Below, piece after piece: positions 2,676-48,865 of a DNA stretch of 64,000 bases; the first letter of the stretch is position 1; each line of letters starts with the position of its first letter. The notes under the pieces were generated by a model. The model ran no database searches and was not told the DNA's origin. It saw only the letters and a list, made by a program, of their open reading frames with translations. The stretch is from Epilithonimonas vandammei (lineage in GTDB: Bacteria > Bacteroidota > Bacteroidia > Flavobacteriales > Weeksellaceae): the NCBI RefSeq assembly GCF_003860525.1, contig NZ_CP034161.1, forward strand, positions 1,302,001-1,366,000, written 5' to 3'. The translations under genes and the position numbers were made by a program.

Positions 2676-5567
2676 ATGAGAAAAAATTATGTTAAATTAC
2701 CATTGTTGATTGCTGCTTTGTACTTTGGCGGTGATTTGCATGCACAATCCACACAAGATACTGTTGCGAAAGAAAGCAAGATTGAGGAAGTAGTTGTGAT
2801 TGGTTATGGAAAACAGAAAAGAGGAGATTTGACTTCTGCTATTTCATCTGTTAAATCAGAAGAGATTACGAAGCAACCAGCAACAACAGCTATGCAGTCG
2901 TTACAAGGTAAGCTTTCGGGGGTAACTATTGTAAACACAGACCAACCTGGCGCGACTCCTAGTGTTATTGTTAGAGGTTTAGGTACTGCTTTAGGGGGAC
3001 GTGATCCTTTATACGTTGTTGATGGGATGATTGTACCAAATATTACTAACATCAACCCGAGAGATATTGAGTCTATTGATGTTTTGAAAGATGCAGCATC
3101 TTCTGCAATCTATGGGGTGAGAGCCGCTAATGGGGTAGTAATTGTAACAACCAAAACAGGCAAGAGAGGAAAAACTAAAGTAACTTATGATACTTATTAT
3201 GGATTTAAATCTATCCTTAATAAAGTTGAAATGGCAGATGCTAGCCAATACACACAGTACTTTAACGAAGAAAGAAAAGCTCTAGGAAAAACAACTTTCC
3301 TTTCTCCAAATCAGCCCTATAATACAAATTGGCTTGATGAACTTACTCGTACAGGTATTGTGCAGGATAATAATGTAACTTTAAGTGGTGGTGGCGAAAA
3401 TGTAAATTACTTTCTGGGAGTAGATCATTTTACAGAAGATGGAATTTTGCCAGGACAGGATTACAGACGTACAACTATTAGAAATAATAATACGTACAAG
3501 TTATTCAATAACAAAGTTCGTCTTACTCAGAATGTGAGTTTTTCAACGACGAAAGAAAATATCAAACCTTTAGGTGCTTTTGATACTGCTCACAGACAGG
3601 CTCCAGTAGTGCCAGTGAAATTTAATAATGGTAAATGGGGCTTGCCATTCTGGAATGAAACTACAGGATTGGTTTCTTATCCTGGTTCTACGCTGAACTC
3701 TCACGGTAATCCAGTCTCTTCAGTCTATTATACAAATGAGACTGCAAGAACTAATACTTTACAAGCTTTCTTACAGGCAGATATTGACATTACAAAAGGG
3801 TTGGTTTTTACTTCACGAGCTGGAACTACTAAATATTGGTATAATAAAGAAACTTTTGTTCCGAAAAAAGATTTATGGTTAGCTGCTGATCCAACAAGGA
3901 CTGCTGCTCAATTTGCAGCATTAAAAGAGGCAAATCCATCGAATACAAGTTATGCAAATAATTCTTATGCTTTACAAAGAATAGATACTTTTCGCTGGCA
4001 ATGGGAAAACTATTTCACTTATGATAAAAAGTTTGGAAACCATAGCCTTACAGCAGTTGCAGGGATGTCTGCAGAGGAAGTTGGCGTAGGTGGTGTTATG
4101 TCTGGTCTTGCATATAATGTACCGGATAAAAAACAATACTGGAGTCTAGATAGAGGATCAGCTGTCCCACAAAAAGAGATTGGACAATCATATTATACTC
4201 CTTTACGTTACGCTTCTTACTTTGGAAGAATCCAGTATGATTATGATAAGAGGTATTATGTTTCAGGAATTATTAGAAGAGATGGAACCAGTAGATTTAA
4301 AGAACAAGAATTATATTGGGATACTTTCCCATCAGTGAGTGCTGGATGGAATATATCTAATGAAGACTTCTTAAAAGGAAATTCAACTATTAATTTCTTA
4401 AAACTTCGTGGGGGTTGGGGAACATTGGGTAATGAAAACATTCCTTTGGTTAATATTTCTTCTACTATAAGTGGGCCTGGAAGTACAAACTATAATTATG
4501 TTTTTGGGCCTGGGCAGGATTTGATTTTTGGAGCATATTATAGCTCTCCAGCAAAAGCACTTGGATGGGAAATTACAAAAGAATGGAGTGTTGGGACAGA
4601 TTTCGAGTTACTTGATAGCCGTTTGACTGGATCATTTGATTATTATCAAAAGAAAAATACCAATGCAATATTGCAAATTTCACCGATTAAATCAAGTCCT
4701 TATGAGGATGCCTTTTATGATCATGCAGCAGTTGTAATGAATAAAGGCTGGGAAACTAGTTTAAGATGGAAAGATTTTTCTAGATCAAGAGATTTCTCTT
4801 ATGAAATAGGAGCCACTTTTAACAATAATAATAATGAGGTTACAGATGTTAAGCCTGCTTATGGAGGTATGACAGGAGGATCTCTTGGAAATGGACGTAT
4901 AACAAAAAGATTAGAAGTAGGACAAGCATTGGGATCTTGGTGGATGTATGAAGTAGATGGTGTATGGCAGAACCAAGCGGAGATTAATAGCAATACTCAT
5001 CTTTCTGGTGCAAAACCGGGATTCTTAAAATATAAAGATCAGAATGGGGATGGCGTGATTGATGATCGAGATAAAGTATTCTTTGGAAGTTATATACCAA
5101 CTTATAACTATAGTCTCCATTTAGGATTTACATATAAAAATGTTGATTTTAGTGTTGATGGTTACGGTGCTGGCGGTAACAAAATTTATAACGGTTTGAA
5201 CAGTACTCGTTTAGGAGGAGAAAATATTTCCCAATATATGTTTAACAACAGATGGACAGGAGAGGGATCAACTAATTCAAATCCTGGAGCTAACCGTGAT
5301 GTGGAAGCTTCTAATTACTATTTAGAAGATGGAGATTACTTCAGAATAAATAATATTACGTTGGGCTATAATTTTAGAGATAAAATTGAAGGTCTTCGTA
5401 ATCTTAGAGTTTATGTAACGGCACAGAATCCTTTCATTTTTACAAAATATGAAGGTTATACGCCTGAATTAAATTCTAATGGTGATCCATATGGAACTAC
5501 AGGAGTTGAATTATCCGCCTATCCTAATTTAAGAAGTTTTATACTTGGAGTAAATGTTGAATTTTAA
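2676..5567 (+). CDS. SusC/RagA-family TonB-linked outer membrane transporter
   Basis: This is the outer-membrane barrel of a glycan importer that works with the SusD-like lipoprotein encoded 11 bases downstream. The 963-residue product has a signal peptide (to about residue 24, ending HAQ), a TonB-box-like EEVVVIGYG near residue 40, a plug domain with the family motifs VIVRG and LYVVDG, and a C-terminal barrel ending in the aromatic strand LGVNVEF. The carboxypeptidase-regulatory-like N-terminal domain common in SusC proteins is absent, and the TonB box follows the signal peptide almost directly. By neighbourhood the likely ligand is a beta-glucan oligosaccharide. Confidence 0.95.
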   Translation: MRKNYVKLPLLIAALYFGGDLHAQSTQDTVAKESKIEEVVVIGYGKQKRGDLTSAISSVKSEEITKQPATTAMQSLQGKLSGVTIVNTDQPGATPSVIVRGLGTALGGRDPLYVVDGMIVPNITNINPRDIESIDVLKDAASSAIYGVRAANGVVIVTTKTGKRGKTKVTYDTYYGFKSILNKVEMADASQYTQYFNEERKALGKTTFLSPNQPYNTNWLDELTRTGIVQDNNVTLSGGGENVNYFLGVDHFTEDGILPGQDYRRTTIRNNNTYKLFNNKVRLTQNVSFSTTKENIKPLGAFDTAHRQAPVVPVKFNNGKWGLPFWNETTGLVSYPGSTLNSHGNPVSSVYYTNETARTNTLQAFLQADIDITKGLVFTSRAGTTKYWYNKETFVPKKDLWLAADPTRTAAQFAALKEANPSNTSYANNSYALQRIDTFRWQWENYFTYDKKFGNHSLTAVAGMSAEEVGVGGVMSGLAYNVPDKKQYWSLDRGSAVPQKEIGQSYYTPLRYASYFGRIQYDYDKRYYVSGIIRRDGTSRFKEQELYWDTFPSVSAGWNISNEDFLKGNSTINFLKLRGGWGTLGNENIPLVNISSTISGPGSTNYNYVFGPGQDLIFGAYYSSPAKALGWEITKEWSVGTDFELLDSRLTGSFDYYQKKNTNAILQISPIKSSPYEDAFYDHAAVVMNKGWETSLRWKDFSRSRDFSYEIGATFNNNNNEVTDVKPAYGGMTGGSLGNGRITKRLEVGQALGSWWMYEVDGVWQNQAEINSNTHLSGAKPGFLKYKDQNGDGVIDDRDKVFFGSYIPTYNYSLHLGFTYKNVDFSVDGYGAGGNKIYNGLNSTRLGGENISQYMFNNRWTGEGSTNSNPGANRDVEASNYYLEDGDYFRINNITLGYNFRDKIEGLRNLRVYVTAQNPFIFTKYEGYTPELNSNGDPYGTTGVELSAYPNLRSFILGVNVEF

Positions 5568-9896: not shown

Positions 9897-10013
9897 GCCA
9901 GGAACCTGCTGTCCGCTATATCTTTTTTATCATTGCGAACGAAGTGAAGTCATCTGTTCAACATTGTACAATCGCAATTATAAAAAAGGATGCCGCTACC
10001 ATCAGGGCTAGGG
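9897..10013. repeat. Dispersed repeat family B, copy at 9.9 kb
   Basis: Left arm GTCCGCTATATCTTTTTT and right arm AAAAAAGGATGCCGCTACC match the copies at 19.8 and 48.7 kb. The centre differs and has its own inverted repeat, ATTGCGA (9931-9938 area) against TCGCAAT (9971-9978 area). It separates the second glucanase from the esterase gene and fills most of the 260-base gap. Confidence 0.75.
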
Positions 10014-19759: not shown

Positions 19760-19861
19760 GGAGCTTTATCCCGCTATCCACTATATCTTTTTTTCGTTCA
19801 GCCGGCATCGCTTCGCTCGCCGCCTTCATTCAAAAAAGGATGCCGTTACTATCGGGGCTAG
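19760..19861. repeat. Dispersed repeat family B, copy at 19.8 kb
   Basis: The element starts GGAGCTTTATCCCGCTATCC and ends AAAAAAGGATGCCGTTACTA then TCGGGGCTAG. The roughly 45-base centre is GC-rich with clustered CGC/GCG runs and differs from the centres of the other copies. It lies between the convergent PAP2 and rlmH genes. Confidence 0.8.
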
Positions 19862-19920
19862 TTGGCAATTCGGCATATTTTAATCACTATACTCAATAGA
19901 ATAAATTCCGGCGTTGCCTT

Positions 19921-35078: not shown

Positions 35079-35126
35079 TTTTTTTGAAATTAATTCATAC
35101 TTATTAGGTGGGAATTAAATAATTTA

Positions 35127-35134
35127 TATATTTG
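35127..35134 (+). promoter_or_regulatory. Promoter -7 box for the DUF4395/NIL operon
   Basis: TATATTTG matches TAnnTTTG and would start a transcript near 35140, giving a leader of about 125 bases before the ATG at 35266. Confidence 0.55.
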
Positions 35135-35140
35135 TATCAG

Positions 35141-35248
35141 AATTAAATGATTAGCATCTTCTCTCATATCATAATGTGTAATTCCAAATAAACATTGGGT
35201 AGGCGAGAGTGTGTGAAAGCTTTACCCTTCTAGGTGAAGCTTTTTTAA
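35141..35248 (+). promoter_or_regulatory. Candidate cis-regulatory leader RNA with terminator and competing pairing
   Basis: Between the -7 box and the DUF4395 ATG is a hairpin of AAGCTTTACC (35217-35226) and GGTGAAGCTT (35233-35242) followed by TTTTTT, which is terminator-like. GGGTA (35197-35201) can instead pair with TACCC (35223-35227), which overlaps the terminator's left arm, so the two structures exclude each other. Upstream, CTCTC (35161-35165)/GAGAG (35205-35209) and AATGT/ACATT (35173-35177/35192-35196) could form a small nested fold. It did not match the consensus of SAM-I, SAM-II, TPP or cobalamin riboswitches as I remember them. Riboswitch, attenuator or plain terminator are all possible. 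Confidence 0.5.
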
Positions 35249-35265
35249 TTTTAAAATAAAAAACT

Positions 35266-35706
35266 ATGGAAAAAAGTAAAATTAAAACCATTTACGTTGA
35301 TGAAAACGTCATTTCAATTGTAGCTTATCAGGTGGTATTGTTAACGATTTTTGGACTTCATTTCCAGCAGCAATGGTTGCTATATTGTGTGGTTATTGAT
35401 TTTCTAATCAGAGCAACAGGAATCTTTACGTCTCCATTATTTTTTGTGGCAAAAAAAATCAGCGAGTTTCTCTATCTGGAAAAGAAGCTTGTTTTTGCTG
35501 GCCCGAAGAGATTCGCTGCGTCGCTGGGTTTGCTTTTATCGTTATTAATAGCCATTTATTATGATTCTCAGGTTGGGATTTTTCTTGGGATTTTTCTCAT
35601 TGTTCTGGCATCTGTAGAAAGTGTTTTTCGTGTCTGCGTAGGCTGTTACATCTATAACTACTTGGTTCTTCCGCTCCTCAAAAAAATTAACCGTCCAAAA
35701 AATTAG
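35266..35706 (+). CDS. DUF4395 family membrane protein
   Basis: The 146-residue membrane protein fits DUF4395: an N-terminal VDENVISIVAYQVVLLTIFGL, the DFLIRATGIFTSPLFF segment near residues 44-60, AGPKRFAASLGLLLSLL near 78-95, and the conserved cysteine pair region CVGCYIYNY near 125-133. Relatives often sit near rhodanese or thioredoxin-like genes, which hints at sulphur or redox chemistry at the inner membrane. It is the first gene after the leader, 4 bases before the NIL-domain gene. Function is unknown. Confidence 0.8.
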   Translation: MEKSKIKTIYVDENVISIVAYQVVLLTIFGLHFQQQWLLYCVVIDFLIRATGIFTSPLFFVAKKISEFLYLEKKLVFAGPKRFAASLGLLLSLLIAIYYDSQVGIFLGIFLIVLASVESVFRVCVGCYIYNYLVLPLLKKINRPKN

Positions 35707-35710
35707 AATT

Positions 35711-36019
35711 ATGATTTATCCTAACGAAAATAATAACCAAGCATTGTATGCCGGTTCCGAAAAAGATATTTTATTGGAAGTCGATCTGAATGGTAAGATC
35801 AGATTCGATGTTTTGCTTTTTGCAATTTATAATCAGTTAAATATCCCCTATAAAATCATCAACGCAGATCTGGAATATATTAATGGCAATAATTTTGGCA
35901 ATGTACATCTGCAGTTAAAAGTTAATAGTAGCTCAGTCACAGAACTGGACGATTATCTTAAAAAATATAAATTGGTCAATAGTAAAATTGATGTCACACA
36001 AAAAAAGGAAGCTTCTTAA
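35711..36019 (+). CDS. Stand-alone NIL-domain-like protein
   Basis: The 102-residue product resembles a NIL domain, the ferredoxin-like module at the end of methionine-importer ATPases and in some sulphur-assimilation proteins. The pattern is VLLFAIYNQLNIPYKIINADLEYINGNNFGNVHLQL followed by a helix and a final strand. Here it stands alone with no ABC ATPase. It is 4 bases after the DUF4395 gene, and its stop codon lies in the loop region of a terminator hairpin. A methionine- or sulphur-sensing role is inferred from the domain family only. Confidence 0.6.
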   Translation: MIYPNENNNQALYAGSEKDILLEVDLNGKIRFDVLLFAIYNQLNIPYKIINADLEYINGNNFGNVHLQLKVNSSSVTELDDYLKKYKLVNSKIDVTQKKEAS

Positions 36020-36035
36020 TTAAGCTTCCTTTTTA
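36002..36035. terminator. Intrinsic terminator overlapping the NIL-gene stop
   Basis: AAAAAGGAAGCTT (36002-36014) and AAGCTTCCTTTTT (36022-36034) form a 13-bp perfect stem with a 7-base loop. The stop codon is inside it. It can also serve murA on the other strand. Confidence 0.85.
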
Positions 36036-48731: not shown

Positions 48732-48809
48732 GGAGCTTAATCCCGCTATCCGCTATATCTTTTTCTTTTTATGTAAAAAAGAAAAAGGATGCCGCTACTA
48801 TGGGGCTAG
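48732..48809. repeat. Dispersed repeat family B, copy at 48.7 kb
   Basis: GGAGCTTAATCCCGCTATCC at the left and AAAAAGGATGCCGCTACTAT at the right match the other copies. The centre TTTTTCTTTTT-ATGT-AAAAAAGAAAAA is itself a hairpin, so the whole element can fold into a long rod. It lies between divergent genes. Confidence 0.8.
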
Positions 48810-48865
48810 TGAGCACTTCGGTATTTACGATTCAGAAACTACCATCTACTATCAATCAAAAATCG

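Follow-up and report, generated by a model that had tools for sequence, protein, structure and literature searches.

A putative ribosome-mediated attenuator reading cysteine upstream of DUF4395 and NIL genes in Epilithonimonas

In transcription attenuation of the trp type, a leader open reading frame (ORF) carries a control codon, and the RNA can form the pairings 1:2, 2:3 and, as terminator, 3:4. For cysteine, poly-Cys ORFs were reportedly described in mycobacteria by Canestrari in 2020. Passages of PMC13236596 and PMC9094748 cite such mycobacterial work, and the former passage terms the cysteine leaders of Actinobacteria translation attenuation. In actinobacterial cys operons, cysteine leader peptides have runs of Cys codons and, according to the section of PMC1262725 that treats them, no conserved terminator hairpins. 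The uORFC-8-2 motif before cysS in Rhodobacterales, as a portion of PMC8632094 describes it, consists of a short Cys-codon ORF in a stem followed by an intrinsic terminator, and pausing for lack of Cys-tRNA was proposed there. Parts of two further papers mention leader-peptide attenuation upstream of amino acid operons, in general terms, for Flavobacterium psychrophilum (PMC9723704) and short ORFs in the 5' untranslated regions of B. thetaiotaomicron (PMC7366714). Our searches of the open-licence literature brought up no report of a cysteine leader in Bacteroidota (Bacteroidetes) or before DUF4395. The results below suggest that cysteine attenuation, known in Actinobacteria and Rhodobacterales, occurs in Bacteroidota too, apparently a new phylum and gene family for this kind of control, and that it may act on a tRNA-Cys gene.

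The window analysed here is a stretch of 64,000 nucleotides from Epilithonimonas vandammei. In it, a leader sits between a YaeF/YiiX-like amidase gene and a DUF4395 gene. We propose, with a probability of roughly 0.8, that this leader is a cysteine-reading transcription attenuator of the trp type, mediated by the ribosome. Its features and those of the operon behind it are as follows.

35101-35134, plus strand: promoter, with the -33-type element TTATTAGG and the -7 box TATATTTG (35127-35134); predicted from sequence, with the same layout in relatives
35147-35191, plus strand: leader ORF of 14 codons, peptide MISIFSHIIMCNSK and stop; frame open with Met-Cys in 22 leader-bearing genomes of the genus
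35154-35214, plus strand: P1 hairpin in the fold of the window's leader; 5' arm within the ORF at about 35154-35165, 3' arm past the stop codon at about 35202-35214
35174-35179, plus strand: ATG TGT (Met-Cys), the proposed ribosome pausing site; TGT is the synonymous TGC in L002 and L010
35197-35227, plus strand: possible antiterminator in the window's fold, GGGTAGGCGAGAG (35197-35209) pairing with CTTTACCC, which is part of the terminator 5' arm
35215-35246, plus strand: intrinsic terminator, GAAAGCTTTACCC-TTCTAG-GTGAAGCTTTTTT with a T tract, from the terminator scan and folds
35266-35706, plus strand: gene for a DUF4395 membrane protein with a CxxC (Pfam PF14340, 76.7 bits), proposed to be regulated
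35711-36019, plus strand: gene for a stand-alone NIL domain protein (Pfam PF09383, 27.1 bits against a cut-off of 24), proposed to be regulated
36002-36034, plus strand: hairpin resembling a terminator, at the operon's 3' end, from the terminator scan

As in trp-type attenuators, there is a control-codon ORF, a 1:2 hairpin, a possible 2:3 pairing and a 3:4 terminator; the window's leader differs in having one control codon, a very short leader and a weak 2:3 pairing. With uORFC-8-2, as far as the portion of PMC8632094 describes that motif, it shares a Cys-codon ORF in a stem and an intrinsic terminator, but uORFC-8-2 has two tandem Cys codons, precedes cysS and belongs to another phylum, whereas the window's leader has one Cys codon and precedes DUF4395 and NIL. 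It is therefore no member of that class, which is marked by tandem Cys codons before cysS. The actinobacterial leaders, in the section of PMC1262725 cited above, likewise place Cys-codon ORFs before sulphur genes; they have Cys runs and no conserved terminator hairpins, in contrast to the single Cys codon and terminator found here. The F. psychrophilum attenuators share the phylum and the mechanism class, but they lie before amino acid biosynthesis operons, and the main-text parts of PMC9723704 describe no cysteine leader or DUF4395 among them.

The sequence-only reading of this DNA had pointed to a -7 box, and TAnnTTTG, the Bacteroidota promoter consensus, indeed stands at 35127-35134 and is kept in relatives. 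The -33-type element is TTATTTGG in most of them. Among 20 printed sequences of the genus, the -7 box is TATATTTG in 19 and TATCTTTG in L017; because that set was picked by requiring TTTG[CT] upstream, this count is no independent test. A scan for the consensus alone was weak, with 4 sites in 3 kb against 1.9 +/- 1.4 in shuffles. Transcription would probably start just upstream of the 14-codon leader ORF, which begins 12 nt after the box. This ORF, overlooked earlier, lies between promoter and terminator, and its translation is predicted. It is intact with Met-Cys in all 22 leader-carrying genomes of the 23 examined in the genus; the ORF searches partly selected for Met-Cys, and the loci they missed, read separately, also have it. 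Across 19 sequences, the ORF is either 45 or 48 nt long, a single in-frame step of 3 nt, and the spacer from stop codon to terminator takes five lengths (24, 25, 26, 27 and 28 nt). Among 16 distinct ORFs of 14 codons, one of the other frames is closed in 15 and the remaining one in 14. Most changes fall at the third codon position (minimum changes at positions 1, 2 and 3 of 11, 5 and 21), and synonymous changes make up a share of 0.40, where column shuffles give 0.24 +/- 0.10 and reach the observed value in 26 of 500 cases. The synonymous excess is modest, and the P1 5' arm constrains the codons too. The genus leader has one Cys codon (two in L075), and Met-Cys stands at a constant distance from the stop codon.

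Next, we examined the structure of the leader RNA. The window's leader folds better than its shuffles, with a z score of -3.69, and 1 of 200 shuffles folded equally well. The terminator-like hairpin with a T tract that had been noticed earlier was confirmed: it lies between the leader ORF and the first gene, 97.4% of its cells are paired across 19 relatives, and two of its pairs are changed on both sides. P1, the 1:2 hairpin whose 5' arm falls within the ORF, has 82.1% of cells paired in its outer helix and 73.7% in its inner helix over 19 sequences; the per-sequence folds agree, with a weak P1 in L017. For the whole consensus structure, 85.0% of cells are paired versus 41 to 55% in slid versions, and cells with two-sided changes reached the observed number in 12 of 500 shuffles. 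A covariation check in orthologous upstream regions, as proposed in the sequence-only reading, thus bore out conserved pairing of the terminator and P1 but not covariation, since pairs with two-sided changes in the P1/terminator structure were no more frequent than in shuffles, 305 of 500 of which had at least as many.

The competing pairing is less firm. The possible antiterminator contains GGGTA (35197-35201) and TACCC (35223-35227), and these strings had been put forward as a mutually exclusive pairing with the terminator; as a conserved pairing this did not hold, both strings being present in 2 of 19 relatives and the shorter GGTA and TACC in 6 of 19. In its alignment version, the antiterminator has 85.0% of cells paired, but 73 to 76% remain paired when it is slid by +1 or +2, and its covariation is not beyond shuffles; for P1 and the antiterminator together covariation is slight. 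Pairing between the P1 3' arm and the terminator 5' arm was not stronger than in shuffles over the 19 sequences (mean z -0.39, 13 negative), and the window's own pairing gave z -1.62 (p 0.07). The competing pairing is present in the folds of most genus sequences and absent from the fold of L016. The idea of an on/off switch stands as far as a leader with a promoter, a terminator and a possible competing fold goes, but within the genus the competing pairing is not above shuffles.

Judged from the sequence, the anatomy of ORF, P1 and terminator is that of a ribosome-mediated attenuator. The sensor would most likely be the translating ribosome and the signal charged tRNA-Cys, both putative. RNA polymerase would start just 5' of the leader ORF. 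With ample Cys-tRNA, the ribosome would pass the Cys codon (35177-35179), reach the stop codon and depart; P1 would then form, its 3' arm would be occupied, and the terminator at 35215-35246 would halt transcription. With scarce Cys-tRNA, the ribosome would pause at the Cys codon and mask the P1 5' arm, and the freed 3' arm could pair with the terminator 5' arm, giving read-through into DUF4395 and NIL. A ribosome waiting with its A site on the Cys codon would cover roughly 35161-35190, a span that includes some of the P1 5' arm, and would leave the RNA from 35197 onward free. We infer translation, pausing, antitermination and induction by cysteine shortage from this arrangement, and DUF4395 and NIL would presumably have a role in the supply of cysteine or sulphur amino acids. 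Against the proposal stand the single Cys codon, where classical leaders have several, and the antiterminator of the genus, whose energy and covariation are not above shuffles.

The genes behind the leader are those named in the sequence-only reading, as Pfam confirmed for both DUF4395 and the stand-alone NIL. The cysteines of the DUF4395 CxxC are invariant across 33 sequences. The protein is predicted to be all-helical except for short strands (mean pLDDT 87.4), and comparison of this predicted fold with solved structures gave no usable match (best E-value 1.0). The NIL domain occurs once in its own genome, and the next gene after it, of the EPSP-synthase family, has the opposite orientation. 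In G005 and G015, DUF4395 was not found by Pfam search and the leader directly precedes NIL; therefore the leader is associated with NIL as well. Both the leader and DUF4395 are absent from G012. The window contains no tRNA genes.

We located the leaders of the genus by DNA similarity, a DUF4395 search and a covariance model. The model, built from 19 of the found leaders and run under Infernal's stricter filters, gave one match in each of 22 of the 23 genus genomes and none in the other 273 among 296 family genomes. The G005 leader is not part of the 19-sequence alignment (A4), nor are L007 and L008, whose sequences match that of L006 completely or almost so. Sixteen public loci have the window's leader type, 10 of them labelled Epilithonimonas and 6 Chryseobacterium. 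In the window's own genome, a search for the leader motif gave a single exact match, at the known position, and 16 sites with two mismatches (4 for the backward control pattern). Upstream of the six PALP (cysK-type) genes of that genome, no short ORF with neighbouring Cys codons was seen, which speaks against the proposal.

These data also bear on the earlier suggestion that the leader is an undescribed riboswitch, in which P1 and its loop would bind a sulphur metabolite. The terminator, the sulphur-linked gene and conserved nucleotides in the P1 loop speak for such an element, but the loop nucleotides differ between clades, and the conserved 5' stretch is a reading frame that contains the P1 5' arm, with changes that are partly synonymous and a length that varies in frame. 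A search of the leader against Rfam 15 returned nothing at gathering score; its nine matches up to E 5 were all far below it (for example, 18 bits versus 55, and PreQ1 with 17.1 versus 39), and seven related loci gave no match either. The observation that the sequence fits no riboswitch class is thus borne out by Rfam, whereas the conclusion that it is an undescribed riboswitch is not. Since Cys-run ORFs also occupy the same place elsewhere (see below), we consider a riboswitch very improbable and rejected it on the Rfam negatives and the conserved ORF. The tie to sulphur amino acids remains, with the Met-Cys frame and sister Cys-run leaders in place of a riboswitch ligand. A simple, testable mechanism thus replaces the idea of an orphan riboswitch, and cysteine shortage becomes a candidate physiological cue for DUF4395, a membrane-protein family of unknown function.

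Is cysteine the signal? The sister DUF4395 operons suggest that it is. A DUF4395 scan gave 167 confirmed stretches, and the best 80 of these were kept as loci: 16 of the window's genus, L075, whose leader (MYQNCSNMMMCNTN, then stop) resembles the window's, and 63 others. In 16 of the 63 loci outside the genus, a leader with a Cys run (at least two Cys codons) heads the DUF4395 operon: L074, L078, L081, L082, L083, L091, L093, L094, L095, L096, L100, L103, L109, L117, L132 and L138. Examples are MKLNSQNITICCCCCCCKAQWISYWWA, MKNQMIHNINGLKMCCCPQKSLSTEGIS and MNREIKNINKINISEKMMCCCMPLTRCGRM, each followed by a stop. L093/L096, L109/L117 and L078/L082 are near twins, so the independent cases are fewer. 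GTG is the start codon of the L078 and L082 leaders, L074 and L081 were counted as leader-bearing through L197 and L196 (contig coordinates), and the L095 terminator was seen by eye and not by scan. For the remaining 47 of the 63, a search of up to 4 kb showed no Cys-run leader, a point against the proposal. Within the window's own family, other genera have a Cys-run leader in 5 of 10 loci (L044, L045, L046, L049, and L047 through L166) and no such leader was seen in L041, L042, L043, L048 and L050; eight order-level loci (L051-L058) have no Cys leader beside DUF4395. L041, L042 and L048 encode a longer DUF4395 protein of about 213 to 216 amino acids with an extra CPGExC stretch.

Intrinsic terminators are present after Cys-run leaders. 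A scan for short Cys-run ORFs (three Cys within eight residues) with a terminator-like hairpin gave 18 matches on the DUF4395 strand versus 4 on the opposite strand, and a looser scan for Cys-run ORFs gave 20 versus 3. Thirteen of the 18 are leaders listed above, and none of the 4 opposite-strand matches has three Cys in a row. The other five same-strand matches (L059, L064, L066, L075 at 6200 and L079) are not DUF4395 leaders, and short CC ORFs at L086, L099, L107 and L124, unlisted by the three-Cys and hairpin scan, were not counted. In a first comparison, CCC-bearing ORFs stood before 5 of 80 DUF4395 genes versus 6 of 485 other genes of the same loci (p 0.01); five of these six control matches are heads of the same operons and the sixth is an ORF inside the operon. 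Tandem Cys-bearing leader ORFs, each with a terminator hairpin, occur before the operon in L166 (3436-3760, reverse-complement coordinates), L095 (2550-2920), L093 (3490-3860) and L100 (2520-2880).

In these relatives, complementarity between the terminator 5' arm and the sequence that follows the Cys run is higher than in shuffles (combined p 2e-4 for nine non-twin leaders, which stand for 11 of the 16 when twins are counted). Individually, L132, L103, L138 and L083 (4 of 9) reached p <=0.05, and L093 and L094 gave no antiterminator signal. Taken together, the Cys-run relatives support an antiterminator; individually, not all of them do.

The Cys runs span 2 to 7 codons in peptides that are otherwise unlike, and 9 of 12 printed runs mix TGT and TGC. 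Both facts fit codon reading better than an arrest peptide, in which the nascent Met-Cys-Asn segment would stall the ribosome on a small molecule (cysteine, methionine or SAM) or in response to redox, rather than on empty tRNA-Cys, while the RNA part would behave identically. Such a peptide would suit the single Cys codon of the window's leader, the invariant Met-Cys, whose spacing to the stop codon is constant, and a length fixed but for one 3-nt step; given the sister runs, we regard it as unlikely. For the attenuator, the Cys control codon is one and invariant in the genus and 2 to 7 in the sister leaders, some of which precede Cys or Met genes. This cysteine context of the sister operons suggests, by analogy, cysteine as the signal for the one-Cys leader, and from sequence we take the window's element to be a cysteine-reading attenuator that has shrunk to a single Cys codon.

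Operon partners in some loci are PLP-dependent cysteine synthase-like proteins, ThiS-ThiF-rhodanese, JAB peptidase, EamA, MetN with NIL, NlpA-type MetQ and a hexapeptide acyltransferase taken as CysE; some operons thus carry genes of the cysK, cysE, CysO or MetNQ type. By tblastn over the 80 loci, same-strand partners were CysK-type in 8, ThiS-ThiF in 7, JAB in 7, MetQ in 4, EamA in 3 and CysE-type in 3; many of the 80 loci, Pedobacter above all, have none of these partners by this search. In six Cys-leader genomes, PALP genes (25 loci) have short Cys-bearing ORFs within 350 nt upstream, none convincing as a leader. ARAGORN found tRNA genes in 8 of the 80 loci, all of them tRNA-Cys upstream of DUF4395 on its strand, at 3195 in L091, 3899 in L093, 3903 in L096, 3911 in L097, 3899 in L109, 3899 in L117, 3007 in L074 and 2783 in L081. 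In seven of these eight loci, the tRNA-Cys gene lies behind a Cys-run leader of the operon. In some operons the leader might control the tRNA-Cys gene; if this is true, the charged tRNA that it senses would be the product of a gene under its own control.

The partners bear on one more explanation, in which read-through would depend on the ATG codons next to the Cys codon, or simply on whether the ORF is translated, and the sensor would be one of methionine or of translation in general. MM or MMM precedes C in several leaders, and MetN and MetQ occur in some operons; however, the runs outside the genus are of Cys, with the exception of L079, which also alternates Met and Tyr, and tRNA-Cys is the sole tRNA in the 80 loci. 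We find this explanation highly improbable. Extending the cysteine attenuator beyond the window, we tentatively suggest, at slightly less than even odds, an undescribed ribosome-read cysteine regulon in Bacteroidota, in which Cys-run leaders, sometimes in tandem, would control DUF4395, cysteine synthesis or methionine-type uptake and sometimes tRNA-Cys; DUF4395 and NIL would act in cysteine or sulphur uptake, and the window's leader would be a shortened, single-codon form of the KMMCCC type.

Two minor observations were made along the way. In L079 (Proteiniphilum), a leader-like ORF, MCCCMPMYMYMYMYM (MCCCMPMYMYM), with a strong terminator lies at 4519-4720, downstream of DUF4395 and behind the apparent start of a metN-like gene. 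On its minus strand, the window itself has three Flavo-1 RNA motifs, at 9898-10013, 19763-19863 and 48735-48811.
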